A DNA stretch of 64,000 nucleotides, taken from contig OZ020303.1 of NCBI GenBank assembly GCA_963971305.1, forward strand, positions 46,550,106-46,614,105. The letters run 5' to 3'. Of this stretch, positions 41,664 to 64,000 are shown piece by piece. A program made the position numbers and the translations under genes. The notes below the pieces were generated by a model. The model was given only the letters and a program-made list of their open reading frames with translations, was not told where the DNA came from and searched no databases. Source of the DNA: Arcuatula senhousia (Eukaryota; Mollusca; Bivalvia; Mytilida; Mytilidae). How positions within the stretch are numbered: the first letter of the stretch is position 1; each line of letters begins with the position of its first letter.

Positions 41664-44600
41664 ATGATGCAAGCAGATCAAGATAAAGACAAACCGTCAA
41701 AGAAGAAGAAAAATCGGACATGGATGGAAGCAGCAAAGATCGTAAGCAACCATCAAACAAATGTCAAATTTTAAGATTGATTTTTCATGTTCTACAAAAA
41801 TTTTCGATAAACGATAGATTTCTAGACTATGATAATGAAATCCTAACGCTTACACCAACAAATCTAAACAGCAACCAGCAGCAAGAACTCTTATTGAACA
41901 GGTCGGGTGCATTCTTCATTTGCAACCATGTATCGTTTTAATGACAGAGCTGTTTGCAGAAGATTTGCCAAAAATGATCTTTATAATAAAGATCAAAGGA
42001 AAAGATTAAATATGAGGCAGGTTTAACCTGTGACGCTCCCGAAGTTAAAATTCATATTTTGCGATACGAATTGAAATAAGATATGTTTGCAAATAAAAAC
42101 AAACTAGCTTTTCTTGTGATTCACATGTGCCCTTAATGACGATCGAAATTTGTAAAGAAATGGGTAAAATTAAGATAACGACGCAATATATTTATAAATT
42201 TGTCCCGTGTGTTGTTTTAAATTTTGATATTTTCCATCAGAATGATTTTGGTTTTATTTATAAGAAAATGCATAATAGTAACTAAAATAACCGTTGATTT
42301 TCGTACAATTTGGTACTTTAAGAATAAAAATGAATTTTAGAAAGTCAGTATCGATTTCTGATAACTGCACGGTAAATTGTCCTTTCCGTGTCACCAGTTT
42401 TCAAACATTCATTTAAAACAATTATTGTAATATTTAAGAGGGATTAAATTATAATTCATATATAACTAAAGCAAAATTTAGTGTCCATCAACAAATTTCT
42501 ACCAAAATGATCTTTAAATAACACTTATGGTCCGTTTTTTAATTGTCCGCCAATCATATGTCATTACCGTAAAAAAACGGAATTTTAATTTTCACCGGAT
42601 CCGATGCGAGAGAAAACCATTTAGTTTTTGTGACGTCATACAAGACTACGCCATTTTTCAAGAAGATGTGAACATGACGCTGCTGGGTGAATATTTGATA
42701 GAAACTTTCAACCGTAAGTGCTTATTGATTATAATATACTTATTACTTGTCATTGCCGTATGCGTCATAGGTAGTACTCCACAATTAGGATTTTTTCACA
42801 ATATTGTTTTCGTATGTGGCCCCTGTGAACTTTTTTGTTAAATGAAAATATTGATTCGTTTTGATCTTAAAACAAGACAAATAAAAAATCTGGACCCGTT
42901 ATATAAAAATTACGATCCACGGTTATTGTTTTAAAGAATAATTTCGAAAAAATCAATACCAATGGTCATAAAGCGTCGCTTCCGGCTGTGCATGGTGACC
43001 AGCGGATGGGCTTAAATTTAAATGTGCTATTTTTAGATTTTTAAGTTTGAACAATTTTAGCGGAAAAAAGAGCCGAAGTCGGATAGGTTTATTTGGTCTT
43101 AAAAGAAAGGACTGTTTTCGGGCTTTCATTTCATACATGTTACGTTTCACCTGAACCGAAAGCTCGACTACTGGCAACGTTCAAAAAAAGGACAAAACCC
43201 CAATTTTTGCGTATTTTTGTCCCCAAATTTTTGACAAATGTTAAGAGTTGCTAGGGGCAACGAGTACAACAAAGAAACCAAATACGGCACTAAACACGAC
43301 TAAACATGCCCGGAGTTTGGAACACCACCTAGTTTAAAGTGCAAATAGCAGTTTAAGCGATAACAAAAACCCGGGACAAAATAGTCGACGTCGAGCACAT
43401 GCAAAAATGAGCTAAATAAATTAATTGTGGAGTACTACCATATGGCATTATTCTCATTAAAATTTTAAGAGTATATCTTGATTTTAGTCCTTGGTTTAAT
43501 TGTTGAAAATAAAGCTAATATATTTGAGAATTACTTGTTTCAAAAAATTTGGGAAAAATATCAGTTATTAAGCATAAATGCCCATAGCAACCAAACATGC
43601 TTATTTTTGAAAATATCGTCAATAACGTTATATTCTGTACAGCTGGTTATGCTGTATGTAACGCTAACAACGTTAATAATTTCCCCGGAAGAAATAAAAA
43701 TTACACAATGCAGTATATTTCCCCGTATGTAAAACATAAAATTGTAATTTTTAGTCGGCTTGAATAGAAACGCGAGGCATTATAGCTTGCAATGCAAATT
43801 TTAAGCAAATTTTGATGATGTGTTTCCATGGACGCCATTATTGTAGATTTTTTCACGGAAATCTTCCAAATTTTCACAAATATGTTTGAAATAGGCTAGA
43901 AAATGTCTTAAGCACAACAGAATACCACTTTTGTTACGAAAATACAAAATTTGATTCAAAACAAACGGGGAAAGAATCTAACGTTATTGCAGGAAAATGT
44001 CCAAAAAAGAGCTTGATCAGAAAAGGGCTTCCGTCTTTGAGCGTGCGTTACTATGGTAAAACATAAAAAAAATCATAATATCCGGTATTCCTCAAGTGGT
44101 TACATACTCAAGAAGAGAAAAATGCAACTCATGTTAAATTTTCAAAAAATGCAAAAGCATTATGGTAGTACTCCACAATTAGGATTTTTTCACAATATTG
44201 TTTTCGTATGTGGCCCCTGTGAACTTTTTTGTTAAATGAAAATATTGATTCGTTTTGATCTTAAAACAAGACAAATAAAAAATCTGGACCCGTTATATAA
44301 AAATTACGATCCACGGTTATTGTTTTAAAGAATAATTTCGAAAAAATCAATACCAATGGTCATAAAGCGTCGCTTCCGGCTGTGCATGGTGACCAGCGGA
44401 TGGGCTTAAATTTAAATGTGCTATTTTTAGATTTTTAAGTTTGAACAATTTTAGCGGAAAAAAGAGCCGAAGTCGGATAGGTTTATTTGGTCTTAAAAGA
44501 AAGGACTGTTTTCGGGCTTTCATTTCATACATGTTACGTTTCACCTGAACCGAAAGCTCGACTACTGGCAACGTTCAAAAAAAGGACAAAACCCCGATTT

Positions 44601-47600
44601 TTGCGTATTTTTGTCCCCAAATTTTTGACAAATGTTAAGAGTTGCTAGGGGCAACGAGTACAACAAAGAAACCAAATACGGCACTAAACACGACTAAACA
44701 TGCCCGGAGTTTGGAACACCACCTAGTTTAAAGTGCAAATAGCAGTTTAAGCGATAACAAAAACCCGGGACAAAATAGTCGACGTCGAGCACATGCAAAA
44801 ATGAGCTAAATAAATTAATTGTGGAGTACTACCATAGTTTTGTACAAGTCAAATGATAGTCAATATTTGAAATACCCGTCAATTGACCAACATGTTCCGT
44901 AGAAAATCCGCCCCTTAAATTCGTCACATATCACTTCGGCCCTTTTTAAAAGAATAAACACATGTAAAACGTCAACTCCGTACATGTCAAATCCATACAT
45001 CGGAAACATGTACGGTAATGACAAAATCGCAATCGGTAGTGACAAAAATGTACGGCAATGACATTCTTGCAAATCTATTTAACAACTATTGGTATTTTTC
45101 GGGAAAATCTACATTTAATATGTTTTTTTTCGCATTATATTGGGACCTGCGTTCCAAATACGATCCCGTCTGAATTCAGTAATGTAAAGTAAACAAAAGA
45201 AAAAGAGCATTATACAGTGGGCATATTATTACTTACCGATTGTATTACGTAATATTCAGAGCAGTTTAATGTTGCAGGCTTGACAGCTAATCTGCAGACA
45301 GATTCAAGTTTATTATCCATTAAAATGCAACATTTCATTGCAGGTATACAGCGTGAGGAAGACGTTACCAAAAAATTAGAAATTGTTGACAATTTACTGA
45401 ACAGCGCCGATTACTCTAGGGCAACGGAGGGAACACTATGTATGGACCACAACCGCTCAAAATGGATGGAGGCCTTTCTTGATAAACGTTGGATGGATGA
45501 AAATAGTTTTTATTTGTTTTACTTACAAGACTTAAAACTTCTTATTATGAAACAAATAAACAACAGGAAACAAAAACAATAACATGGGAAAGACTAATAA
45601 AGGAAATTGTAAGACTATGACGCCTTCAGAAAGGCTAAAAGCTTACAGACAGAATATAAAATCTGACCCAATCAGATATGAAGAATATCTGAGAAAAGAG
45701 CGTGAGCGTTACCAAAAAAGAAAAGAGAGTGGGCAAATAAAAATGGTGAAAGATCTCAATGACCGAGATAAGCGGAAAAAAAGAAAAAGTTGGAGAAAAT
45801 CAAAGAAAGTCCAACGAGAGAAAGAGAAAACATTTAAGACACTTTTCAACAACTTACAAACTCCTCCACAAACCCCCGAGCACTCTGCTGATTACGACAT
45901 ACGTATACAAAATCCAGTAAGACAACATCCGAACCCTTCATACAGATCTGCACAACACCAAAGAGGACGTAAAAAAGTAAAAAAGTCGAAAAGTGCAGCT
46001 TACAGGAAGATAGCTGTCCTAGAAAAGCTTATAATAAAGAAACAGCAAGAGGCAGATAGGTATAGGAAAAGATATGAGCGATTAAAACAAAAAGTTGATA
46101 CTAAACAACATGAAAATAATTCACAAACCTCAAGTCCCAGAAAGAAAACGAAGGAACAATTGAAAGGTAGTAAAGTAACGAAAGAGGTAGAGAGAGACAC
46201 ATGCTTTTTCACAATGCTTTGATACAAGAATTGAAAACAAGATTTAAAGAACTAGAAAATGAACGTGATAAACAAGTGTTTTCAAAAGTTATTACAGGAA
46301 AGATCCTCCGCAAATATAGGATGACTACAATGGCACTGAAATACGTTGGCATACCTTATGGACGACACAGAGCGAACCAAGGGAGATCAAAGAAATTGGT
46401 TTTTGAAAAGAAACAGAAAAGAACCACAAAGAGAAACACTCTCGGTCAAAAGGTCCAAGAATTTCTAGAAGAAGATGTGAATAGCAGGCAATTGCCAGGA
46501 AAAAAGGACACGAAAACAAAAAATAAGGAAAAGAGACAAAAACGAATATTAAGTGACACAATGAAGAACTTGCATAAGAAGTTTCTATCAGAAAATGAAG
46601 CTGTAAATCTGTCATATACTTCATTTTTGCGATTGCGACCGTTCTGGATAGTAACGCCAAAGGTTTCCGAAAGAGACACATGTGTTTGCAAATTACACAC
46701 AAACATGCAATTCATGGTTACGAAGTTGTACCAAGAAAAAGTGGTACGTTCTAAAGATATGATAGAATGTGTCAGCGAAATAGTATGTGACACCCAGAAC
46801 AAAGAATGTATGTACCGAGAGTGTGAAGAATGTAAAACCAAGGAACTTGAGGTAGTTAATCCTGAAGTAGATAATGAGTTTGAGGAACAAGTTTACGTGG
46901 ATGAGTGGGTGAACAGAACAGAAGAAAGAACAAAGTATAAAGCAAATGGTGAACAAGAAGTATTTAACGTTAGTATCGTGGTCAAAGAAACAAAACAAAT
47001 GTCAATTCGACATTTATTAGAAGATGCCAATAGCTTGATGTCCAAATTTTCGCGCCACATATTTAATATTAGGAACCAACATGTGAAAATGAAGACATTG
47101 AAACAAGAATTGTGTCCCCAAGAATGTTTAATTCATATAGATTTCTCGGAAAATTATGCATGTAAGTTACCAGAGGAAACACAAGGTATGCATTTTGGGG
47201 GTTCAAGATCACAAGTTTCTCTACACACAGGTGTATTATACATAGCTGAAACACAACCTATGTCGTTTTGTACAGTATCGGAATGCACTCGGCATGACCC
47301 AATTGCAATTTGGTCACACCTGAAACCAGTTCTTGATAGTATCAAAACTGACCATCCGGATATCAGTACTGTTCATTTTTTAAGTGATGGTCCCACAACT
47401 CAATATAGGTCAAAATCAAACTTTTATCTAATGTGTGCCAAAATGGCAGAGTATGGCTTTAAAACTGCAACCTGGAATTTCAGTGAGGCATCACATGGCA
47501 AAGGAGCACCGGATGGAGTAGGTGGTGTTATTAAACGGACGGCGGACAGGTTAGTTGCAGAGGGAAACGACATTCCGAATTGTGACAAGTTTATGGCAGA

Positions 47601-50600
47601 ATTGACCAAAACTGGTGTCAACGTAAAATTATATCGAATAACTGAGTCTGACATTATCAACTTAAAACCAAAGTTACCGGCCGTTCTTAAAAGAGTACCG
47701 GACACAATGAAACTACACCAGATCAAATGGAAGAAGGATATCAAAAATCAAATCCACACAAAAACACTTAGTTGTCTTTGCAGAGACGTTTGTGAATGCT
47801 ACGATGATAAGATTCACACCTTTCCGGAAATAGACTGTGACCAAGACTTAGTGGATGAGCGTGAGGAACATGATGTCAGTGCTCCTGTCGAATCTGTCGA
47901 AAAATCTGATCAAGTTACGAATGCAGATGGTCTCCGTACAGTAGATCACCTAGATGAAGAATTAGTTGGGCAGTGGTGTGTAGTATTATATAAAGAACGT
48001 GCATATCCTGGTATCATCAAAGAGGTAGATATTGATAGTGTAGAGGTCACGTGTATGCATATAATAGGAAATAATAGATACTTTTGGCCCTTACTAGATG
48101 ATACTATATGGTACGAGTTTGATAAGGTAGCATCATTGATACCTAACCCCGAAAAGGTTACAAAAACTGGTCGACATTTCCAGATTGCACCAGAAATATA
48201 CAAACTGATCGTCAAAAGATACAATCTAGATTAACTTTATGTGACAAAAAATGTTACTTTTAAAACTTATTGTTGACTTTGTTTCTATACCCTGACAAGA
48301 GAGGACAGCTAAGGTTATTTTTCTGTATATGAAAATAAGAAAATGATTAAATAGATTATGATACAGTATTTCAATTTGTTATGACTTATTCACCAAAATA
48401 TAATGGTAAGCATTGCAATCAAATATCTAATCACCTCTTGTCAGGGTTTCAGTTTTGTTGTAGTTACTTTACATGTAAATATGTTATAATTTTTATGGAC
48501 AATGCTTCATTCTACTTTTTAAAGTTTTTAATTGATGCAGTAACCATTTAATGATTCGCATATTTAGATTTTTTCAACAAAGCACATGTTTTAAACTTTG
48601 GAAAACTTAAATTTTAGGACAGGTAAATGAGTTTTATATCTGATCGATTGTTCTATTTCACACGTGAGCCATTGTTGTCTTCGAGGAACTGTATACAATT
48701 ATATACCCATTTTAATATCCTATAAGGGTCTGTTTTTATTTACATTTTATGTTAAGAACAAAACTTCCATGTCATATAACCATGTTGTTTTGTCAAATGA
48801 TATTAGTGTTATTCAATTAAACTGTTAAATGTTATTTTGCATTCTGTTAAATGTTATTTTGCATTCAGCTTTATCCAAATTCTATGTAGTAAACTAAGCT
48901 GATGAAATTAAGATGTGGATAATCTACTTCTTTGAAAGAAGCAAAAAGGCACCAATAGGGCATTCCAATGTCAAAAGTCAAAAAAAAAGGCACAACCTGG
49001 CAAAAATAAAAAGAAACAAGCACGAACAAACAGAAAATACAAAACTCACAAACAACAATTGAACATCCTCTGACAACACAAAGTCAAGTCATAATAATAA
49101 TAAACTTAGGTGCACTGGAAGAGTTAGCAGTTTCTGCCTGTTGCAACACACCAGCCGCGTTGCCAATGATCAGCACAGCGTGTCAAATCCCGTATAGGAG
49201 AACAAAACAAAACTCTATGACAAACCAAAACAGCACTCATCTGAGAGACATAAACCCCATATCTCATTCTGTCTAATCTTCTGGTGATGTATTCAATAAA
49301 ATGTCTTAGGTGATAATCTCTTTAGCTAATATAGTTTATGCAATGTTCATCTTGTTACTACACTGCTATGGACATCATTTCATAAATAGCACAAATAATG
49401 TAAGCTACAATTAAGATAGCAGCACAATTCATTTCGTAAAATGGCACATTTAATGATATATTCTGTAAATTGTCCTTTCCGTACAAGGTTTGTCATAACC
49501 GTCAACGTACAAATCATTACCGTACATTTGACGTCATTGCCGACATTTTTTGTCATTGCCGTACATTCGTTAAATTGATAAAAATCTGAAATAAAACCCT
49601 TTGAAATATAGTTTTCTTATGTTTTAAGTCACAGAATTATTACATTCCATCATCAGAACAATTTTTGTGATGCTTTTGTTAGAAATAGTTCTCGTTTGAA
49701 TTTTAATTATATAAATGATATCCTCCCGAGGAACTTTCAATTGCATTTATATGTTTAAAATACTTATATCATATGAATTTATGAACAAAAACTATTGCAT
49801 ATATGTGCAAATTTAGTTGGTGCTACAGTATCCGCTTTGATTCCATGTAAAAAAATTAACAGAAAATCTTTTAATGCAATATTTGTATAAACAGTCCATA
49901 TGTACGGTAATGACAGTTACGAAAAATGGCGAGGTATAAAAATGTGAATAATTTTAAAATCTAGTAAATTTTAGCTTGACCAACGTTTTTATCTTATGCT
50001 ATGTTCATATATCTTTCAAGATAAAAGCAAATATTTGATTAAGTGGAATATCTGATTTTGTTTACTTGGTGTTTCGCAATAATGCAGTTGTACGGTGTTC
50101 ACCCAAATAAGCCTTTAAAAGACGCAGATAGTTTGAGACAACAAGTGTGCTAAATTTGACATTGAAGGAAAATTTTGCTCATAGTACAACTAAAATATTG
50201 ACATTTCTACCATTAGTGCTAGCCTCCCTTTCGGAGTGTATAAAATGAAACAAATTTGCTGCTTAATTGGGGACAAGATTCTTGAGTCTAGTCCAACTTT
50301 TGACAAGTCTTTAGAGCTAAAATCAGTGTTCTCGGTAGGCACATACATCGGGCACAGCGCCCGCCCTTGATTCAATGACGCCCTTGCCTTTTTGCTGATC
50401 AATGTGCCCCTTTGTACGGCGCCATGTCCTTTTTTTACGACGCCCTGCCCTGTTGTTGAATATCGAAGTCAAGTCGGCCTACGAACTTGCGTAAGTCGCC
50501 CGAGCAATCCGCTGTATTTTTCATATTTTCTATGTTAAAATTGCCACTTCCACAGATTCCTTGATTACCTTAATGTTTATTTAAGGGATTAGCTTGGATA

Positions 50601-53600: not shown

Positions 53601-56600
53601 TTCAATATTTTGTTCTTTTTCACTACCAGCATTGCATATTTCTTTTTACACTTAATACATGTATGATACCTTTTCATTTGTCATGTCTGTTTTCTTTTGT
53701 TCCTTTGTAATTACTGTAAGTACAAAAATGTATTTAAAATGTTGAAGAACAAATATATTGAACACATGCTAAGACCGGGTGTAATTAATACCAGAAAATG
53801 ATATCAGTATTGAACATGTATTTATGCTATGTATGTTAAAACAAAAAAAGATATAGCTTAGTGGTTAATAGAATAAATGATTTATGTAATTAATAAAAAC
53901 TTATCGGTGCATGACAATTTAATTTTATTTTCAGTGGGTCTGTTCCATTAGCATGTTTGAATTCCTGCTTAGATACAAATTCTCGTGGAAAAGAGAGCAT
54001 ATTTTATAAAGTCTTCAGTAGATCTGATGTATATGGTTTAAAGGTAAGAATGCAACTGGTGTTGAATAGAAATGATCTATATATGTGTAAGAGTTATAAG
54101 TTAAAAATATTTGCCAAAATATTGTCATAGGATACAAAATAGCTTAAAGGACAAGGTATGGTAAGGTCCATATTGTATATGTATTTTGGACATATAAATT
54201 GTTTTATTATATTTATTAAAGATGCATATAAAGTAATACAACTTTCAACATTTTATATTTTTTATTCAATTTTTGGTGTCATGGACTTCAAGATGCAATT
54301 TTACTATGCATTGAGGCTTTTGTATTTTTCTGTTTCAGAGTGATTTACCTGCTGGTTCTGAAATTGTAGAGGTGAAAACTGAAGATGATGATGTTCAAAT
54401 TACAGATAATACCTACCCTGACCAGCCAAAAGAAAGTTGTAAGAATTGAGCATTCTAATAAATTTTCATGTTTAGAATATAATGACATGTATATGTATGA
54501 AAAAATATGTTGATATAATACATTCTTAAATAAAATCAATAGAATAGAAACATTTGTAGAGAACACACCAAGTTATATACGCGACACAACCGACTTCTTA
54601 AATAAAATACATAGATAACTACTTGAATAATTATAATATAATACAAATAAAAACATTATGACTGAATGGCCTTTGTAGAAAGTATATTAGGTTTACCATG
54701 TAGTTACCAGCAATATGCCAGACATAAAATGATTAAATTTTCTCCTATAACATAAGAAAATTTTGCAACAAAACTATAAAAGCCCAAGACTATTAAAATT
54801 AATTATGTAAGAAACATTGTTTTTCCTTTAATATTTGGTTTGTTAACAATTACATGTAGTTTGTATTTTTGTGGCTTTTTAGTGGTTTATGCTAGATTAC
54901 CAAGTGGTATTACTACTATCCCAATCAAAGACGAGGAAGAAAATGACGATGATGATGAATCTTCTAATGAGCCAGACAAATCAACATCGAATGGAAATGG
55001 GGACACACAACCAACTAACCTGAGACGTAGCATTAGACAGTCGTTACGGCAAATGAAAAAGAAATTGGAATACCCTAGGATAATCATCAAGCCTATTCCA
55101 CCTCCGCCAAAAGAAGGTAGTGTTTTCGCTTTAAGTTCAGTTTATCATATCTCTCATATTATCTTTTCTATGGCTATCTCCAAACATGTATAAACATAAA
55201 CGGCGGTGACACAGCCAGTAAACAGCTTTCAAATTTAACACAGTTGTTTAAAAAAAAAAAGATTCTTTATGAAAATAAATTATAGATCTTTAAAACCTAT
55301 AGTTTTTTTTGCAGAGAAAAAGGAAGAACCTAAAAAAGAAGTTGTAATAAATGTTGAAGAAAACATAATAATACAACCTGAAGTTCATCAAAATGGTAGT
55401 CAGACTTCTGAGGAATCAGAGCCAGATTCTCAGACACAATCCCAAAGACCTCAAACAATGAAGGAAATATTAGCAGGTCTCCCTGGATTTAGCATGAGGG
55501 TAATGTACATTATATGTAGCATCCATTGGGTTTTAGAAATAATTATTTTTTTTTCTTTAGCAATGCTTTTTATTTCCTAAGTACCAGAAATGAATATTTG
55601 TTTCCATGAACCTATTACATATGTGGTCTAATGAGAAACCCTGGAAATTAAAAAAATCATCTAGAACCACAAATTTCATACCTATAAAAAATGGTGCAAA
55701 TTGAAAGCCTGCCCTAAAGACTCTTTGTTGAACTATTAAAAATGCACGAATATCTAGATTTTATCAGGCTATTTTTGACTTTGACCGATTTTGTTTTGTT
55801 TTAATCTATATAATAACAACTTGTCACATTGTAGCCAAGGAAAAGAACAAAGAAGTTAAGTCATGCTGCCCAGATTGCCCAGACCAAAGAAGGCTGTATA
55901 GATTTGGAGACCCCTGATTCCATTCTAGTCACAACTAATCTAAGGGTAAGAGATGTGTGGTTTACACAGAGTACAGTGTCAGAATGGGTACCTATATCTT
56001 ATGCGAGCCAAGCGAAGCTCACTATTGTAGAGAGTCTGCCAAATTGCACGAGACTCAAAATACGATGGTTGAAAATAAATTCTGTCTGCTACTCGGAATG
56101 CATTGGGAATTTTCGACAAAACCGGGTCTCGCATTAACGATACCCGGTGTTTTCGCTTATTTATTTGCAAACGGTTACAAAACCAAACCTTTTGTTGGTG
56201 TTAATGGCAAGAACTTTCTCAATAAATAATAACTATCTAACGAACGAAGGCTAGTTGTTTTGTTTTTATTAAATATGGCCCCCTTCTCGCGAGATTTCAA
56301 TACACTAGTGACCTTTAACACAGAGTGCACAGTCATGCGCAGAAAAATGGCGGGAAATATCACATCACAACGCCCTAACAAGGGTAGTTAAAACTAAGTT
56401 CTGTCATCAATTATCGGAACTTTTAACATAAACAGATTCATTATAAAAGCGTGACAAGAAACTATTTTTTCTGCATATGTATGATAAATAAATTTGGTCC
56501 TACCTGATCTGAAAATATAATCCTAATCCATCCTCAAGACATGTGCCGTGTCGTGGTCCTTCAAAGTCAAACTGACAATGACATAGTTAAATGATCAATG

Positions 56601-57710
56601 CAATCATGGGTCCGTCGTCATTTTCCGCCAGGTTATTCAATCTTTTGCAGCCAGTACTAGTAAAAATTAGATACGGGTATACAGAAAATCTCACAAAACC
56701 TGACAGAAGAACATTGACATTTTGATGTGTTCATGTTTACAGTCTGCTGGATATGTGACGTCAAACCATATTTTGACGTTTTTTTAGGATAATACATTAA
56801 TTATTATTTTTTTTCGAACAAATTATTCAATGTTTAATCACTAGCAGACCCTCTTAGATATTGGTCCAGCTGAGAGTATTTTAACAATATTTTTCAGATC
56901 CAAATTAAGGTTCGACCCAGATTAGGCTGAACCTATTATCTGATTTATCACATTGCATCAACATAATTTGTGTTGATTTTGTATCTTCGCGAGCTTTTAG
57001 GGCAGAGCCATTCTCATATTACTGTAAACTAACTTATTGTTTTGAGCGATTTATTGTTGTGAAATAAAAATATTTCAATAAAATATAAAATATGGTCAAT
57101 AAAAATAACAAAAAATGTTTAGAATTAGAATTAAACCAGATTGTATGACTTCAAGCTCCTTTTCTCTTGCAATCTAGGTCTTTGTTAATGAAAGACAATC
57201 TTGTTGCAAGACACAATTTCAAAAGTCAAGTGATTAACACAGAAAAGCACATTTATATCTGAGAAATCACAAATATTGTAACATGTGCCACATCTCTTTT
57301 GAATGTTTCTTTCTGAATTTTACATATTGATACTTCAACTCTGGGCTGTTCCAGAATTAAACTAGGGGGTGGGGAGGAACTTCTATAACATATATGGTGG
57401 GTGGTGGATGTTTTAGAAATATTTTGTGAAGAAACAATGATAAATATTAATTATTTTTTTATGGGTGTTGGGGTAAAGAAAAAGTGCATCCCGACCCGCC
57501 ACACATTTAATTCTGGAAAAGCCCTCAGTCATAGTAATAAACATTTTCCAAAAAAAGCTTGTTACATGTACTGTCATGTTTTATCATTTCTGAATTTCAG
57601 ACATTGATTGACAGACACACCTTTGATTTACTTCCCCCTAATTACCAGTACAAACTTTTACATCTGCTTCCTGAATGTGATAGATGTATAGGGAAGGATG
57701 ATGGTATGAG
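41664..57710 (+). CDS. ASXL: ASXL (Additional sex combs-like), N-terminal exons, continues beyond the window
   Basis: Exons: 41664-41741, 53435-53517, 53935-54043, 54339-54438, 54883-55116, 55315-55499, 55835-55945 and 57601-57710, all phase-compatible. Exons 1-3 encode the HARE-HTH domain: [46 protein letters not shown]. Exons 4-6 form an acidic, low-complexity linker. Exon 7 has [16 protein letters not shown] and exon 8 [20 protein letters not shown], the start of the ASXH/DEUBAD domain that activates the BAP1 deubiquitinase in the PR-DUB complex acting on H2A mono-ubiquitin in the nucleus. The HARE-HTH is a predicted DNA-binding module. ATG 41664 is followed at once by a second ATG; the first is chosen. 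Introns 1 and 8 each host a related transposon gene. Exon 8 ends in phase 2, and later exons with the PHD finger lie off the window. Confidence 0.92.
42000..42150 (-). repeat. Inverted fragment of the dispersed repeat seen at 24950
   Basis: ATATGAGGCAGGTTTAACCT, CGATACGAATTGAAATA and AAACTAGCTTTTCTTGTGA are the reverse complement of the right part of the copy at 24950-25265. It lies in ASXL intron 1, just left of element A. The other inverted fragment is at 50085-50190, just right of element A. Confidence 0.5.
42626..42673 (+). promoter_or_regulatory. Element A promoter: CRE plus YY1-type site
   Basis: TTTTGTGACGTCATA at 42626-42640 contains the full CRE palindrome TGACGTCA. It is followed at 42649-42658 by CGCCATTTTT, a YY1-type site, and then ATG at 42674. 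Element B has the identical 15-mer TTTTGTGACGTCATA upstream of its 5' UTR exon, so a CREB/ATF-type promoter is probably ancestral to both. Confidence 0.5.
42674..45582 (+). CDS. Element A ORF1, predicted two-exon 92-residue protein
   Basis: Exon 42674-42713 ([13 protein letters not shown]) ends at a good donor, C-GTAAGTG. Joining in phase to the acceptor at 45341-45343 (TTTCATTGCAG) gives a frame to 45582 with [30 protein letters not shown] and [10 protein letters not shown]. The intron contains both 670-bp MITEs. The stop is one nucleotide before the start of the next ORF. Another acceptor at 45564-45566 would bring the second ORF first, so alternative splicing could choose between them. The domain is not recognised and element B lacks it. 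This is a prediction from splice signals only. Confidence 0.35.
42770..43439. mobile_element. 670-bp MITE, copy 1
   Basis: Inverted ends GGTAGTACTCCACAATTA and TAATTGTGGAGTACTACC enclose 670 bp. TA lies left (42768-42769) and one base beyond the right end (43441-43442), consistent with a TA duplication. The copy is virtually identical to 44164-44833. The open frame inside on the minus strand is identical in both copies only because the DNA is, and is not evidence of coding. Confidence 0.85.
43440..44163. other. Element A intron between the two MITEs
   Basis: About 720 bp of AT-rich sequence with no element A motif, no coding frame above noise and no terminal repeat. It presumably belongs to the ORF1 intron. 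Confidence 0.35.
44164..44833. mobile_element. 670-bp MITE, copy 2
   Basis: Same ends and length as copy 1. The flanks read TA-T on the left (44161-44163) and A-TA on the right (44834-44836), giving TIRs of the form TGGTAGTACTCC with a TA duplication. The only difference I saw from copy 1 is one A/G change near 44590. Confidence 0.85.
45584..46222 (+). CDS. Element A DDE protein, N-terminal segment before a frame break
   Basis: [20 protein letters not shown] starts a very basic region ([22 protein letters not shown]), followed by a Ser/Pro-rich stretch and a coiled coil ([20 protein letters not shown]). The same order is found in the uninterrupted N-terminus of element B. The frame is left near a run of five T at 46205-46209 and the downstream frame at 46201-48234 continues the family homology, so a minus-one shift is needed. 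It could be an indel in the homopolymer, a decayed gene or programmed slippage. The site is not a canonical slippery heptamer. Confidence 0.7.
   Translation: MGKTNKGNCKTMTPSERLKAYRQNIKSDPIRYEEYLRKERERYQKRKESGQIKMVKDLNDRDKRKKRKSWRKSKKVQREKEKTFKTLFNNLQTPPQTPEHSADYDIRIQNPVRQHPNPSYRSAQHQRGRKKVKKSKSAAYRKIAVLEKLIIKKQQEADRYRKRYERLKQKVDTKQHENNSQTSSPRKKTKEQLKGSKVTKEVERDTCFFTML
46201..48234 (+). CDS. Element A DDE-type transposase-like protein, main segment
   Basis: The 677-codon frame continues the family from the N-terminal segment. An all-alpha region with [20 protein letters not shown] and [11 protein letters not shown] precedes Cys pairs ([16 protein letters not shown]). The RNase H-like core has IDFSENYA (Asp 314), [13 protein letters not shown] (Asp 396) and [17 protein letters not shown] (Glu 429), a D-x81-D-x32-E spacing. 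A Cys cluster [10 protein letters not shown] and an SH3/Tudor-like end ([32 protein letters not shown]) follow. The family is common in invertebrates as unannotated proteins. The transposase role is inferred from the triad and the flanking motif arrays. Residue numbers are from the ATG at 46201, which is not the true start. Confidence 0.72.
   Translation: MLFHNALIQELKTRFKELENERDKQVFSKVITGKILRKYRMTTMALKYVGIPYGRHRANQGRSKKLVFEKKQKRTTKRNTLGQKVQEFLEEDVNSRQLPGKKDTKTKNKEKRQKRILSDTMKNLHKKFLSENEAVNLSYTSFLRLRPFWIVTPKVSERDTCVCKLHTNMQFMVTKLYQEKVVRSKDMIECVSEIVCDTQNKECMYRECEECKTKELEVVNPEVDNEFEEQVYVDEWVNRTEERTKYKANGEQEVFNVSIVVKETKQMSIRHLLEDANSLMSKFSRHIFNIRNQHVKMKTLKQELCPQECLIHIDFSENYACKLPEETQGMHFGGSRSQVSLHTGVLYIAETQPMSFCTVSECTRHDPIAIWSHLKPVLDSIKTDHPDISTVHFLSDGPTTQYRSKSNFYLMCAKMAEYGFKTATWNFSEASHGKGAPDGVGGVIKRTADRLVAEGNDIPNCDKFMAELTKTGVNVKLYRITESDIINLKPKLPAVLKRVPDTMKLHQIKWKKDIKNQIHTKTLSCLCRDVCECYDDKIHTFPEIDCDQDLVDEREEHDVSAPVESVEKSDQVTNADGLRTVDHLDEELVGQWCVVLYKERAYPGIIKEVDIDSVEVTCMHIIGNNRYFWPLLDDTIWYEFDKVASLIPNPEKVTKTGRHFQIAPEIYKLIVKRYNLD
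48235..49490 (+). other. Element A 3' region
   Basis: AT-rich sequence after the stop codon. A block at about 48940-49260 (AAGGCACCAATAGGGCATTC, CAACACACCAGCCGCGTTGC, CATAAACCCCATATCTC) is less AT-rich and may be an old dispersed repeat. No coding frame is supported. Confidence 0.35.
49468..49915. repeat. Right-hand motif cluster of element A
   Basis: Four copies in minus orientation lie within 75 bp (49491 degenerate, 49513, 49533, 49551: TGTCATTGCCGTACA), and one plus-orientation copy TGTACGGTAATGACA is at 49901-49915. GTAAATTGTCCTTTCCGT at 49465-49482 also occurs directly repeated at about 42372-42389, left of the outermost left motif. The true left end may therefore lie further out. Confidence 0.7.
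50324..51889. mobile_element. 1.57-kb hAT-like element with CAGTGTTCT ends and 5-bp duplication
   Basis: CAGTGTTCTCG at 50324 and CTAGAACACTG ending at 51889 are flanked by AAAAT (50319-50323 and 51890-51894). It belongs to the same family as 10891-11788. CGCCC and GCCCTT strings lie near both ends. No transposase. A segment at about 51465-51620 is shared, inverted, with 55975-56180. Confidence 0.7.
52045..53285 (+). repeat. Pearl-like tandem array with estrogen-response-element palindromes, copy 2
   Basis: The array opens with GGCCCGACCACGTATGTGG and a GTCCGTCCGTCCGTACGTCC tract (about 52090-52150). About seven 146-bp units follow. AGGTCACTGTGACCT is perfect at 52270, 52416, 52562, 52708 and 53000. 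One-mismatch copies lie at 52854 and 53154. It is the inverted counterpart of 18811-19640 and ends about 150 bp before ASXL exon 2. The open frame at 52065 is a translation of the tract. Confidence 0.85.
55975..57025. repeat. Two dispersed repeats in ASXL intron 7
   Basis: At about 55975-56180, TGCGAGCCAAGCGAAGCTCAC and TTGCACGAGACTCAAAATACG are the inverse of sequence at 51535-51600. At about 56330-57025, GCGCAGAAAAATGGCGGGA and CGAGCTTTTAGGGCAGAG match diverged sequence at 40455-41045 in the CCDC178-ASXL interval. Open frames across 55904-56229 beyond exon 7 are not supported as coding. Confidence 0.45.
57343..57524. mobile_element. Diverged Harbinger-like MITE
   Basis: GGGCTGTTCCAGAATTAAA on the left and TTTAATTCTGGAAAAGCCC on the right are inverted ends of the 7152-8780 family. 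The interior has TGGTGGGTGGTGGATG and GAAATATTTTG. It lies about 75 bp upstream of ASXL exon 8. Confidence 0.65.
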
Positions 57711-57815
57711 GTAAGAAAAGTGTTAAAGAAGGGCATATGTTAATGTAATAAATTACGGCCTATCATATTCTTGTTTGGAGTTTCTGTATGGGTGAAAGCT
57801 TTACATCAATACAAG

Positions 57816-57997
57816 GCTTGCGTTCGGTTATCAAATCTAGGGTGCCCTAGGGACGAAAAATCGTAAATTTGGGGTAGAACGGGGATGGAGAAAGCGTTCC
57901 GAATATATGATTTCTAATGAAAACACAGTTCTGTTTTATTTTTACACCTATGACATAAATCTACCCAGGGAGCCCTGGGTTGTGGAACCGAACACGC
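57816..57997. mobile_element. About 180-bp MITE in ASXL intron 8
   Basis: The left end has TTGCGTTCGGTT and CTAGGGTGCCCTAGGG; the right end has CCCAGGGAGCCCTGGG and AACCGAACACGCC. The pair is inverted with internal palindromes. Exact ends and target duplication were not determined. Confidence 0.5.
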
Positions 57998-58954
57998 CCC
58001 AAGTTTTACAAGTATTTAGGAATCATCCTGTCAGTCTATGCCATATGTCCACATATCTCACAGGGCAATGTCTCCTAAAATGCTTGATGGAATTTAATGA
58101 AACTTAACACAAAGTGGGTACATCATAATCACTCATTCTCATTTTTTTATCCAAAACATTGTCACATCAATATTATTATGAAAACTATTAATTTGGCATG
58201 TATCTTATTTATGGTAAATAGTCTAGTTATACATAATTATCTATAAAGTTATAAAAAATCTTTAGTTAGTGTAGGTTTTCCATCTTTTTAATAAAAATAT
58301 TTCACAACATACGATTTGACCCCTTTCCTAAACCATATGTCACAACTGCAAACGAGGTAAAGTCAAGAGTTAAAATAGGTTATACATTAATCAAATATCG
58401 TCACTATTCAATTATTTTGTTTTCTACATGATCCTTAAGAACACACCATGTCCGATTTTGTGCCGGACTTTCACATAAAAAAATATTTTTTTTAATCTTG
58501 GGTCACATATTTTAAGTATTTTACGTGACAACGTACTTCTTCTTCATATTTTACTGTTAGTCTCGGTATACAGTAAAAGTATTTATTAGTAAATACACTT
58601 CGGGCAACACACTTTTTTAATTGTTATTAATTTCTTTATTTATCATTGTCAAAATTTATAAAAAAGACTATTTTTTTTGGACATTTATTAAAGGGGTATT
58701 TTTACACGTATTCATACGTGACGCCAAAAGCTTCATTAATATCATGCAAGAAAATCATTGAAACTCTTTTACGTATTCCTATTTTATTACAGAAATTGCA
58801 TTCACCCTTATATTTGATAGAAATGATATAATAATGGAAGCACGCAATCAACAATATGACATTTTTTTACGTGACGGTATCCTTACGTGACGCAATATCG
58901 ATTGCCGCCGGATATTTTTGAGACGGAAACGACTCCGGGTGTTATATACCAATA

Positions 58955-59755
58955 TTTTGTGACGTCATAATGTTTACACCGTCATTTCATAGATTGTGAC
59001 CTTGTACAATTATACAAACATGTGAAGTTTTGGTGCGTTTTCCCTGAAATCGAACGTTGACGTTAAACAGGTATGTAGATTTGTGTATTACACACTTCAT
59101 GGACTTATTTCTATCAACTGATAATGATATGTGGTCAATTATTAAATATATACTGCTGTTTATCGATAACCTGTAGCTGTACTTGTCTCAAATATTGGTT
59201 GTTTTTGTCACGTAGAATACAAAAGTTGTCACGTAAAACACTCCTTTTTGAATTTAATTTCTTGGGAAATTTCAAAGCTTCATAATCTTTTCATGGGTTT
59301 CTGATTGGATACAAATAATGTCTAATGCAGTAAATCAATCAAATCTACAATCATTAACTAGCAGAAGCACACTTTTTACGTTTGAAGTGACGTTGAGAAC
59401 GAAAAACTGTTTTGTTCTAAGGACACGGTTCTTTACGTTGTTTAACTTGAATATTTTTGCTTAAATGGCCTAAATAAGTTGAAAAAGAAATAGAAGAAAA
59501 CCCCTACAAGTAAATTATTTCTTAAATCAACATTATATTAGATGTATATGGTTGAGATTCCTCACGTTGAAAACGTCACGTAAAATACATTTTGAAGAAT
59601 ACAATCACAGAACATTTTATTGGAATCGTATCTTATGTTTACTTAAAAATACAAATGAAGATACGATTCCAATAATATAATGAGCTCATCTTGTTGAAGT
59701 CTGATGTCAGCTGTAATAATGATAAAACTTCTAAACCGATGTTTGTCTTCTTCAG
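58955..59755 (+). promoter_or_regulatory. Element B promoter, 5' UTR exon and intron
   Basis: TTTTGTGACGTCATA at 58955-58969 holds a full CRE and is identical to the element A promoter 15-mer. A non-coding exon probably ends at the donor ACAG-GTATGTAG (59070/59071). The acceptor TTCTTCAG ends at 59755, four bases before the ATG at 59759. Three minus-orientation motif copies lie in this intron. Confidence 0.5.
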
Positions 59756-59758
59756 ATA

Positions 59759-62308
59759 ATGGCAAAGTCCCACGCAGAACGACAGAGAGAATACCGAGAG
59801 AGGAAAAAGGCGGCGTTGGGCAGTAACTGGCTGAAAAATGAAAGCAACAGAACTAAAAAGTATTACACTAAAGTAGCCAAGTTGAGTAAAGAGGAGAAAA
59901 GGAAATTCCGAAAAAAACAGAGAGAGAAACAAGCGGTATACCGAATGAAGAAGAAAGAAATGGCTAACAGTACTGACAGTATAAGTTTGAACTCCGATCA
60001 AATTCCAAGTACAAGTCAACAAAATAACGAAATACAGAGAAGTGAAGTTTCCAGTTCTACGTCCCCAATGCTCGTTAGGCTGCCGTTTCGTAAAACACAG
60101 AAAGAACCAAAGAGTAACACTAAGAAGAGGAAACGATCGGACAAGAAGCTAAACAAGAAAATAGAATACTTAAGATCAGTACGAAAAACACTGGAAAAAA
60201 GGAATCAAACGCTTAGAAAAAGAATTTCGAGATTGCAACAGAAAGTATCAAGCTCCTCAAAAGAAAGTCCTAAAACTCCAAGATCTAAGTCTGAGCGCGA
60301 ATTGCGAGAAGCTGGGTTGAATCCTGAACCATCATCACAAATCAAGAAAAAGCTGATATTTGCAAACTGTATGGCAAACGAGATGAAACGAAGTAATAGA
60401 AAAGGTAGAAATATTATTAAGCAGATGGTCGCTAGTACAGTTTTAAGAAAATATAAAATGACTCAGTTTGCTGCAAATTTAATTCGATGCCGAATAAGAC
60501 AAAAGAAAATAGTCATTCGACAGGAAAAAGGACCCAAGAAAAGGTACAGAAAAATTAGAGAGTTTCTAGAGAGGGAAGACAAGTCCAGACAGCTCCCAGG
60601 AAAAGCAGATTCAGTGAAAAATGACAAAAAGGAACGAGTTCAAAAGTTTGTTTTAAATGACTATTTAAAGCATATTTACTTGAAATACAGAGCAGAAAAT
60701 CCAAACGAGGCTGTCAGTTTTGCAACATTCTGTAGAGCAAGACCAAAACATGTTATACTAGTAAACTATGCCTCAAGAATAACGTGTTTGTGTATCAAGC
60801 ACCAGAATTTTGCCATGAAACTACAATGCTTAAAAAAGAACGGAGTAACAAATAACACGAGCCCTGATCATTTTTCGGAAAACACAACTTCAAGCGAGCT
60901 TAAGAGAAAATTAAACTTGGATTTAAAAGAAGAAACAATAGGATTCAAACAATGGAAAAGAGTGAAATGTGATGATGGAAAACAAAGAACAAAACTTTTA
61001 GATGTACAGAAAGAAACTTCTTGTTTCATTAAAGATACAGTTGAGGAATTTGAAGAATTTAAGGAACACACATATAGAGTCAAAACACAATTCCAGTCTT
61101 TTAAACAGATGAAAGAAAACATCAAACAAAATGTAAACCACGTTTGTGTTCAAATGGATTTTGCAGAAAATTACACTGCAAAGGAGATGGAAGAGGTCCA
61201 AGGTTCATATTGGAATCCTGAATCCGTAACGCTTCATCCGGTAGTCATGTATTATCATGATGGTCAAGATGTAGCCCATTCAAGTATGGTAATGGTATCA
61301 GAAGTTCTTAATCATAATGCGTCTATGGTGAAAGCCATTGTTGCGAAAGTAATTCCTTGGGTGAAGCGCTTTTGTCCAGACGTAAAGCATATTCACTACT
61401 GGACAGACTCTCCGACTAAGCAATACAGAAACAAAATAATATTTGATCTGGTTGCCCAACACTCGAAACTCTATGAAGTCTCAGCTAGCTGGAACTACTT
61501 CGAGGCGGGCCATGGAAAAGGAGCATGTGATGGTATCGGTGGTGTTGTCAAGAGGTCTGCCGACACAGCAATCAAGACTCGTAAAGTGAATATTACAGGC
61601 GGTAGGGATTTCTTCGAATGGGGAAGGAAAACAGACGGGAAAATTATGTACGAGTTTATTGAGAAAGAAGAGTACGAAACCTCTTACGGTGAAACTGAGA
61701 GTCTCCAAAAAATGATCAATACAGTTAAAGGTACACTTAAGCTTCATGCTGTTTCTGGTGTTAATGAAAAGGAAGTAATGGTTAGAGAAACCACATGTGT
61801 TTGTGAAAAATGTTACTCTCAAGATGGATTTATCTGGTCAGAACTGAATACTTGTGGTTGGAAAAGACATAGTTTACGACGAACAACTTTGCAAGAAAAA
61901 AACAAAACTCAACTTGAAGATAAAGGTCAAGAAAACAGCGATGACGTACTTAGAGACATGACAGAACAAGAAGACCAAGAACAAGTAGACCAGGAACCAG
62001 AAACTCAAGAACAAGCAGATACTCAGTTTATGTTGGGAGATTTTATTGTCGCCTTATATGATGATGAACCATATGTTGGCAAGATCATTGACATAGATGA
62101 AGATTCGTATGAAGTCACATTCATGGAGAAGGGGTCAAAAGTAAAAGACTGTCTCAAATGGCCACTCAGAGAGGACATTATCTGGGTAGAAAGAAATGAT
62201 ATTATTTTCAAAGTAGAAGAGCCTACGTTTATTGGAAAAGGAAAGCGATTTTGCAAGCTATCTGTTGAAGACATCGCACGTCTAGACCAATTTTCTACCA
62301 AACAATAG
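59759..62308 (+). CDS. Element B DDE-type transposase-like protein, 849 residues, intact
   Basis: The single coding exon starts at MAKSHAERQREYRERKKAAL, three bases after a strong acceptor. Order: basic region (1-70), Ser-rich linker, coiled coil (about 125-175), helical region with VLRKYKMTQFAANL and SRQLPGKAD, Cys patch (TCLCIKH), RNase H-like core with MDFAENYT (Asp 467), YWTDSPTKQYRNK (Asp 550) and FEAGHGKGACDGIGGVVKR (Glu 582), then a CVCEKCY patch, a Gln/Glu-rich linker and an SH3/Tudor-like end (GDFIVALYDDEPYVGKIID, LKWPLREDIIW). The triad spacing D-x82-D-x31-E matches element A (x81, x32). The full frame and UTR intron imply a gene under recent constraint. Transposase is the simplest reading; a domesticated regulator is the alternative. 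I could not place it in a named superfamily. Confidence 0.8.
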   Translation: MAKSHAERQREYRERKKAALGSNWLKNESNRTKKYYTKVAKLSKEEKRKFRKKQREKQAVYRMKKKEMANSTDSISLNSDQIPSTSQQNNEIQRSEVSSSTSPMLVRLPFRKTQKEPKSNTKKRKRSDKKLNKKIEYLRSVRKTLEKRNQTLRKRISRLQQKVSSSSKESPKTPRSKSERELREAGLNPEPSSQIKKKLIFANCMANEMKRSNRKGRNIIKQMVASTVLRKYKMTQFAANLIRCRIRQKKIVIRQEKGPKKRYRKIREFLEREDKSRQLPGKADSVKNDKKERVQKFVLNDYLKHIYLKYRAENPNEAVSFATFCRARPKHVILVNYASRITCLCIKHQNFAMKLQCLKKNGVTNNTSPDHFSENTTSSELKRKLNLDLKEETIGFKQWKRVKCDDGKQRTKLLDVQKETSCFIKDTVEEFEEFKEHTYRVKTQFQSFKQMKENIKQNVNHVCVQMDFAENYTAKEMEEVQGSYWNPESVTLHPVVMYYHDGQDVAHSSMVMVSEVLNHNASMVKAIVAKVIPWVKRFCPDVKHIHYWTDSPTKQYRNKIIFDLVAQHSKLYEVSASWNYFEAGHGKGACDGIGGVVKRSADTAIKTRKVNITGGRDFFEWGRKTDGKIMYEFIEKEEYETSYGETESLQKMINTVKGTLKLHAVSGVNEKEVMVRETTCVCEKCYSQDGFIWSELNTCGWKRHSLRRTTLQEKNKTQLEDKGQENSDDVLRDMTEQEDQEQVDQEPETQEQADTQFMLGDFIVALYDDEPYVGKIIDIDEDSYEVTFMEKGSKVKDCLKWPLREDIIWVERNDIIFKVEEPTFIGKGKRFCKLSVEDIARLDQFSTKQ

Positions 62309-64000
62309 ATGGAGAAAACAAAAGATTGTATTTTACGTGACATGATTTTTTCTATACTAGTATCATGTAAAGTTTTTAGTACGTTTTTAAAGTCAATATA
62401 GTCCATTATTATCTATCTGGACTCAAGATGTAAGTGTTGGTTAGTCGAATATTTTGGGATAAATTCAAAATCAAAATTGTATTCATTATATGCAAATGTT
62501 TATACTGAAAAAAGCTTTCTTCAAAAATGATATGATATTCTAGATTTTTTAAATATACCTTTTTAAACAACTATGATGTATGATTGAAGACTATATATCA
62601 AACTGATGCCGTGATAATCATTTCTGAATTCAATATTCAAATCATCAGTTATTTTTAAAATGTAAAAATCACAAGCCTTTATTTTCTGTATTTTACGTGT
62701 CATTGTTAGATTTTTAATGAACATGTTCTATTTTTGTCTGTTGGTATGTTATTATGTTAGTTTCTTAAAGTTCTTGTTGAATTTGTTAGTTTTGAATAAA
62801 TTTCAACCTTGAATCCTGATGAGTGTTTGATATTAGAATTGTAAAATAACATGTATTTTACGTGACAATTTATACCCTTTTATGGAATAGTTGTCAATCA
62901 GTAGAAGTTCTGAGGAAATCGATCAACCAGATTAAAACATATCAAAATATTGATAATATTACAGCTTAGCAATAGAAAATAGATTTACATGTAAATTTGA
63001 GCCAATGTTATGATTTGAAAGATGTTCAAAATTAAAATTACGACAATTATCTGAAAAACATGTTAAAAGATCGAAATCATATGTTATTTTTATTGAACTT
63101 GTTACTACAAAAATTGTGATTCATGTACTATTGTTAATAGAAAGTATACTTTATCTAAAACAAGAAAGAATTGTTTTTGAAAGTTGTATTGGACGGTGCT
63201 ATGCTTGTTCTTTCTAACCACACAATACTTTGTCACGTAAAAGACATGTTAATTTACAAGGTAACTTCCATCAGTTATAAAATTAAAAGATGTAATGTGC
63301 CAAACTGCCCTTGAAGTGAAAAATATTTCTGAAACCTTCCCTTTTCAAATACAATAATGATCTTTCATTCTTTAGGGAATTTTTTTTTCGATTTTGTCCT
63401 AATCGAATTGGCCCAATAAATGAGAATGAGTGATGGAGACTTAATGAAGAAATTCCATGGCTAGTGAATATCATTCAGGGGAGATAATTCTACTTTATCT
63501 TTTCAAAATGAAGCTGGAATAAGTTTTGTTGTGTCCTATGAAAAAGCAATGGTTGAAGCCGATGCATTTGCTTACTGTTGATTCATTATCATTTGTTGGG
63601 TATCAATTTTCATGTTTTTCATTTGTGGGATTGACCCATGAAATTTGATAACACATTAAAAGGAAATTTAACATTTACCTGTATGCTGCAGCCTTCAAAA
63701 CCATGAATTGATACTTTTTCATCAAACCAGAAAAACAGAAAAATTGGTACCCACTAAAATAAATGAATATACAGTATACTGACAAATAATGTACCATATT
63801 AAAGAGGTATCAGCATTTAAAGTGTTACATATTATTTACATGTATATATAAATAAATATATCATGTATTTGTGTGAAAAGAAAATAGAACCTTAAATTAA
63901 TTTTATTCTTTGTTCTTAAATGATGACAAGAAATATTTTCTCATGCTAGAAAAGGATCAATGAAATCTTTTGTTTGTAAATTTTATTGCTAAGAATTCAA
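62309..64000. other. Element B 3' region and ASXL intron 8
   Basis: AT-rich. Holds the right motif copies (62331, 62691, 62856, 63231) and the candidate right end at 63433. Beyond that to 64000 there is only a GGTATCAATTTTCATG / CCCATGAAATTTGATAAC low-copy repeat near 63590-63650. No coding frame. Confidence 0.45.

Follow-up and report, generated by a model that had tools for sequence, protein, structure and literature searches.

Two related transposons, each with its own repeats

How can a transposon change the letters of its subterminal repeats and still keep them in place? The question is raised by a 64,000-nucleotide stretch of the genome of the bivalve Arcuatula senhousia (contig OZ020303.1 of assembly GCA_963971305.1, positions 46,550,106 to 46,614,105; hereafter the window), which carries two transposons, A (42162-50104) and B (58130-63432), with different motifs repeated around their transposase genes. 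Comparison with further copies shows them to be two families within one transposon group, both with short termini, and the kinship proposed in a preliminary description of the window stands, the two proteins being 26% identical and alignable across nearly all of the second of A's two reading frames. In many families of this group the repeats lie at near-equal distances from the element ends with letters that differ by family, which suggests that each family's own enzyme likely reads a private code at fixed positions.

With up to 2 mismatches the A motif has 7 matches in the window, all within A (shuffle mean 0.08), and with up to 3 there are 9 in A, all of them clear of its gene, plus a single match elsewhere; allowing 4 swamps the signal, with 14 matches in A versus 15 in the rest of the window. 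The B motif with up to 1 mismatch has 10 matches in the window (shuffle mean 0.56), 9 of them in B, none in the B gene and one outside at 1676, and at 3 mismatches 104 matches fall outside B. Together with degenerate copies at 44970 and 50089 in A (4 mismatches each) and at 58712 and 58881 in B (3 each), these counts agree with the roughly ten and eleven copies first described. The strong copies of both elements do lie outside the coding frames, and the layout given at that time is correct for both: outer-left motifs in one orientation, inner-left in the other, then the gene, inner-right motifs in the first orientation and outer-right in the second. A's orientation was flipped for comparison; read as TGTCATTACCGTACA, its motif shares B's orientation. 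The exact A motif occurs at 11 sites in 1.04 Gb versus 3 for a reversed control, and 6 of the 11 are at the three A loci. A genome-wide spread of this motif was rejected, with 5 exact sites outside A versus the 3 of the reversed control.

Further families are named here by the length of their open frame in amino acids (887, 874, 804, 826, 1168 and so on). Motifs were sought blind to position, through a count, allowing one mismatch, of every 12-mer in the non-coding arms. In each of the first seven families a single motif dominates, with 7-11 copies where three resampled controls per family reach at most 2-4: TGTCATTACCGTACA in A, TATTTTACGTGACA in B, GATACATACGTTACC in 887, TTGTAATTTACGTTA in 874, CAGATTCCTCCGTAACA in 804, TTGAAACATACGTTAC in 826 and GTCCCTTGTGTTACC in 1168. 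By our reading, 17 of the 21 families fetched carry their own motif, the first seven and 10 of the 14 that followed. The motif used for 1233 is not its top 12-mer (4 copies), and that of 825 was taken from a search for terminal inverted repeats (TIRs) because an unrelated repeat headed its 12-mer list. The left flank of 825 (L066) contains an unrelated short repeat around GCAAAGCTTCTTGC in up to 17 near copies. Over 14 families the 3' half of the motif is common (mean mismatch 0.22) and the 5' half family-specific (0.58).

A ladder of sites measured from the ends

Element ends were taken as the points where the identity of two copies per family stops, the first base being set where both agree, and copies without late insertions served as references (for A, the copy at C9). 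Measured from these ends, the motifs of the left arm stand at about 392, 582, 737 and 752 bp in one orientation, those further in being mostly in the opposite one, and the motifs of the right arm stand at about 200 bp in one orientation, the other being taken by those at about 575 bp and, in part of the families, also near 735 and 930 bp. Once A is flipped, the first seven families agree in orientation at 73 of their 78 sites. When each family's set of sites was rotated, the observed agreement was reached in none of 2000 trials, left or right.

Among the 14 later families, which served as hold-outs, 8 could be placed, sites past 1250 bp being excluded from both rounds. The first round gave 19 left sites on average 4.5 bp off the ladder and 3 right sites 2.0 bp off, and the second gave 25 left sites 3.1 bp off; under the rotation null the average exceeds 100 bp, and no single site lay further off than 38 bp in one round and 20 bp in the other. 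For 899, one of two equivalent TIR-like candidates was taken as the end when the ladder was already in view, and the end of 746 was set from the TGTC boxes described below, not from a TIR. Families 730 and 836 (same motif, same TIR), like 746 and 898 (same motif), are so closely alike as to be non-independent. A motif is present and no end was found in 898 and 743; 669 and 659 have neither.

Could these positions be merely inherited from an ancestor and without function, gene conversion among an element's repeats having made its motifs alike? The families do share descent, and the copies within one element are alike. The sequence between the rungs, however, has ceased to align among the first seven families (42 comparisons of their non-coding arms gave 2 short hits), and conversion would not preserve spacing. 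From the small indels that separate recent copies, the rungs would be expected to spread by 18-32 bp across 737 bp, given 0.3-1 substitution per site, about 2-3 times more than the root-mean-square rung differences observed (8.6-10.4 bp); the indel rate here is that of the stricter count, the looser one (63 indels, with long gaps) having looked inflated, and the rung values were typed by hand. Between recent copies of a family, moreover, motif sites change less than their neighbours (10 differences in 1052 positions versus 273 in 15558 elsewhere; one-sided p 0.027). We regard functionless inheritance as highly improbable.

A second box in the left arm

The left arm also carries a TGTCGCC box at 41, 206 and 371 bp, which is more conserved than the family motif and came to light through a peak near 200 bp in the averaged GC profile. 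In three test intervals that were chosen after the boxes had been seen, TGTC occurs in 9, 9 and 9 of 11 families, compared with means of 0.7-1.0 and maxima of 4-6 at random offsets (5000 draws). Pairs of TGTCG lying 100-260 bp apart in 18 left arms are separated by exactly 165 bp in 11 cases, by 166 bp in 2 and by 244 bp in 1. The full triple occurs in 2 of the 7 left arms added later (730 and 746), the other 5 being without it, and 1233 has TGTC at 193 and 359. In 730 the end predicted from the boxes coincides with its TIR, though 730 resembles 836. In the clade of A the box is less strong, and right arms seldom carry it.

These left boxes might be no more than relics of an ancestral 165-bp tandem repeat that follow no spacing rule, which would account for the exact 165-bp period in 11 of 14 pairs. 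To the eye, however, the 165-bp units show no similarity in the regions inspected, and the box is preserved to the base where the rest has been lost; we think such an origin unlikely.

A different account of the same step would make the nucleosome the ruler, fixing the rungs while site and reader drift together. The left arm would be wrapped on nucleosome-like turns, so that the boxes, 165 bp apart (about two histone-core turns), and the rungs face one transposase assembly, whose C-terminal barrel would dock on histones while another domain reads the motif. This account builds on the 165-bp step, the predicted barrel and a 10-bp AA/TT/TA periodicity in left arms above that of window controls (4 of 300 controls were as strong). 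The period that a scan over all sites favours is close to 177 bp (106 non-independent positions, without a null; vector length 0.68). Counting against it, the rung steps of about 189, 155 and 15 bp fit no single period well, GC content near the rungs shows no difference, and the rungs of the two arms do not mirror each other significantly (1287 of 5000). We hold a nucleosomal ruler to be distinctly unlikely.

Motif and protein diverge together

The suggestion that site and protein co-diverged is borne out by the correlation of motif distance with protein distance over 14 families (Mantel r 0.71, p 0.0002) and in the clade of B alone (r 0.56, p 0.0004, 10 families), with motif consensuses aligned by hand. 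Close proteins have close motifs in the pairs 874/899, 825/743 and 836/804; the exceptions are B, A, 898 and 826, whose nearest protein carries a rather different motif. The preliminary description had pointed to the basic N-terminus as a part that motif changes might track. After control for the catalytic core, r is 0.14 (p 0.10) for the N-terminus, below the pre-core region (r 0.39) and the C-terminus (r 0.40; both p 0.0006), and it was rejected as the evident reader.

The motifs might instead be read by a host transcription or chromatin factor, as a promoter or silencing array. Several sites do sit between the left end and the gene, as a promoter would, and the shared TGTCGCC box is nearly identical across families and found mainly on the left. 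A shared host factor would nevertheless be expected to retain one motif, whereas here the motif varies among families of one genome, diverging in step with the transposase; beyond the gene, too, there are sites at set distances from the right end. We consider a host reader unlikely.

A proposed end complex

In our judgement, a family's own transposase probably binds the family's end-locked repeats, assembling on the ends before cut-and-paste. A protein assembly of fixed geometry would touch four rungs on the left (near 392, 582, 737 and 752 bp) and two on the right (near 200 and 575 bp), giving an end complex whose left and right sides are unequal, like the multi-site ends of hAT and CACTA elements. 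Selection would keep this geometry while the site letters and the protein that reads them change jointly, with the result that an element's sites would all switch in concert. We infer that the motif binder would be the transposase and not a host protein, that the spacing would be needed for the end complex and that movement would be by cut-and-paste. The retention of geometry while letters change looks new. In those portions of the literature that a search returned, no position-locked ladder of comparable kind surfaced.

Several observations weigh against binding by the family's transposase at fixed positions. The domain test singles out no DNA-binding domain, a Foldseek search gave no PDB match at E ≤ 0.001, and the within-family constraint on motif sites is modest. 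Motif enrichment is seen in the 17 families counted above; in the other 4 of 21 (869, 790, 669 and 659) the 12-mer count gives no clear motif, the best 12-mer of 869 and 790 reaching 4 copies versus a shuffle maximum of 3. The 14 later families came in two rounds of seven, the second without a shuffle control. The flanks of B hold no matching target duplication (TAAT left, ATGG right), and the last 344 bp of B are unmatched in its relative at C6. The position tests, finally, ignore shared ancestry among the families, and because shared descent is left unmodelled, the constraint on spacing is a strong inference and not proof.

The group in the genome

Protein searches of the same genome turned up 91 and 65 pieces, among them several sets of long open frames that share one length, so the group is large. 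Its nearest named protein relatives are mostly from bivalves, for example Mytilus, Pinctada and Ruditapes, and bacterial genomes and viral contigs, searched with one peptide pattern each, gave no useful relatives. Distant relatives in Mya arenaria (P0090, P0101, P0112) are named VRTN-like in the source, which hints that vertebrate vertnin may be linked to this family of transposases. Families 669 and 659 match the B protein only from about residue 184 onward, so their 5' parts may be lost, and 869 and 790 form a distant clade with about 20% protein identity to the others. The 869 family (L072/L073) has a 25-bp inverted terminus beginning GACGTCGCGCA, a 4-bp duplication (ATCT) and no motif ladder.

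The arms of copy pairs are 95-99.8% identical. Termini in the clade of B are CACYCATTCTCA-like, begin with CAGTCATTCT, or read CGGCCAATCTCA or CACCCTGGCTCA; those in the clade of A begin with GGGT (GAGT in 989). Of 16 two-ended copies, 12 lie between 4-bp target duplications, which are lacking in B itself, one copy each of 874 and 804, and 836; the duplicated sequence varies (AAAT, AACA, ATGT, ACCT, ATAC, TGTA, AATA, TATG, ATAT, AAAG, ATCT). The ends of 825 and 869 came from a search rewarding a duplication, and the ATAT of both 1168 copies is possibly part of the terminus; without these four doubtful cases the count is 8 of 12. In the five families with summable lengths (A, B, 887, 874 and 1168) the element measures 5.0-6.0 kb.

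The transposase and its place among known superfamilies

Residues D467, D550 and D591 are conserved in 70 of 71, 65 of 67 and 63 of 64 aligned rows, E582 in 59 of 66, and in two structure models the three aspartates are placed as in DDE/D cores. The protein likely has an RNase-H-like DDE/D core with three acids, likely D-D-D; of the D-D-E core first described, the DDE/D type is upheld, and the third acid looks more like D than E. A C-terminal SH3-like barrel, chromo/Tudor-like, is predicted. Between core and barrel, an OTU-protease-like stretch matches PF02338 at an E of about 0.05-0.06, short of the cut-off, in P0087 and P0090; it is seen by eye only in P0070 and in the 1168-residue protein (L019), and the cysteine position seems lost in the latter. 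Pfam and NCBIfam gave no useful match for the A or B protein, nor did a PDB sequence search with the B protein, and a PDB family's absence from fold tables is given no weight here. Neither A nor B has a Pfam match to KDZ (Kyakuja-Dileera-Zisupton), MULE or Dada, although which of these have Pfam models was not checked.

Known superfamilies are compared here through excerpts of the papers cited. Sola elements are described with 4-bp duplications, a DDD triad, variable termini and a length of 2-9 kb (PMC10741241), and Sola2 with an 888-residue transposase, 12-13 bp TIRs and AT-rich 4-bp duplications (PMC3627910). The present group resembles Sola in its 4-bp duplications, likely DDD triad, variable termini and length within that range, and the earlier statement that no named superfamily matches was too strong. 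It differs in its position-locked, family-specific ladder, which is absent from the excerpts of both Sola descriptions (PMC10741241, PMC3627910). Because the comparison is by description and not by sequence, the group fits as Sola-like by features and is not filed as Sola.

CACTA/EnSpm elements such as En-1 and Tgmt have short TIRs and many short subterminal motifs that differ between subfamilies (PMC2613891). The group is like them in combining short TIRs with subterminal motifs that differ between families, and unlike them in its 4-bp and not 3-bp duplication, its sites at fixed distances and the single gene seen, versus TNPA plus TNPD. Membership in CACTA/EnSpm was rejected on the termini (CACYC.., CAGTC.., CGGCC.., GGGT..), on the duplication of 4 and not 2-3 bp, and on the lack of a Tnp2 Pfam match for A and B.

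The transposases of Hermes (hAT), which has unequal ends, and of Galileo (P-type) read several subterminal sites through a separate DNA-binding domain (PMC10368747 and PMC3688188, respectively). Hermes differs from the present group in its 8-bp duplications and BED domains, Galileo in reading its sites with THAP domains, and unlike in both, the ladder here extends about 1.4 kb into the element. P elements have an 8-bp target duplication, and both hAT and P were rejected on the 4-bp duplication found here. AcademX makes duplications of 3-4 bp, a range that includes the 4 bp seen here (AcademH makes 9-10 bp), and Academ is rich in bivalves (PMC10045372, PMC10294476). Academ was rejected, as neither the helicase domain of AcademH nor the nuclease domain of AcademX was found in A or B by Pfam or NCBIfam. 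The target duplication of Kolobok and Sola3 is TTAA, a feature not shared by the variable duplications here, and Kolobok was rejected.

Elements A and B in the window

A begins 397 bp further out than the left limit first given (42559). Its window copy is flanked by AAAT at 42158-42161 and 50105-50108, as copy comparison shows, and the C9 copy by AACA; the genome holds at least three left ends of this family. The left terminus, GGGTAAAATTAAG (42162-42174, plus strand), was set where the identity of the window and C9 copies stops, and it is followed on the same strand by a TGTC-type box at 42201-42207 (40 bp from the end, with others at 217 and 383 bp) and by outer-left motifs at 42559-42573 (TGTCATTACCGTAAA, about 400 bp from the end), 42748-42762 (about 590 bp) and 44970-44984 (degenerate, 4 mismatches). 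The inner-left motifs at 45009 and 45049 (45009-45063) are on the minus strand. The transposase gene (45584-48234, plus strand) is split in the window copy into two overlapping frames, 45584-46222 and 46201-48234, and is a single frame of 882 residues in C9. Beyond it lie four inner-right motifs at 49471, 49491, 49512 and 49551 (49471-49565, plus), an outer-right motif at 49901-49915 (minus, about 200 bp from the right end) and a degenerate motif-like copy with 4 mismatches inside the right terminus (50089-50103, minus).

Between the second and third outer-left motifs, A contains a later insertion of 2,064 bp (42770-44833) that is absent from C9. Two 670-bp direct copies (669 of 670 positions identical), with termini GGTAGTACTCCACAAT, enclose 724 bp, and a 3-bp duplication, ATA, is present. 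From this arrangement, the insertion looks like a composite transposon moved as a single unit.

B opens with a left TIR, CACTCATTCTCATT (58130-58143, plus strand), followed on the plus strand by an outer-left motif at 58517-58530 (394 bp from the end), a degenerate motif with 3 mismatches at 58712-58723 (the rung at about 582 bp) and a tandem doublet at 58863-58892 (the 737 and 752 bp rungs), whose second copy is degenerate with 3 mismatches. Two inner-left motifs at 59206-59240 and one at 59574-59587 are on the minus strand. The transposase gene, of 849 residues, spans 59759-62308 (plus), and beyond it lie three inner-right motifs at 62329, 62689 and 62854 (62329-62867, plus), an outer-right motif at 63231-63244 (minus, about 195 bp from the right end) and the right TIR at 63419-63432 (minus).

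Significance

Subterminal repeats are already known in several transposons, and the speed at which such repeats and the proteins that read them co-evolve has been named as an open question in work on CACTA elements (PMC2613891, in excerpt). In this one genome, about a dozen distinct families combine a shared geometry with letters of their own, and they offer a natural series in which to test how a protein-DNA code made of several sites shifts at all of them together. The same series could test selection on DNA geometry apart from sequence, to the base in the 165-bp boxes. If it is true that each family's enzyme reads its own code, the change of a protein and of its DNA address could be watched together.
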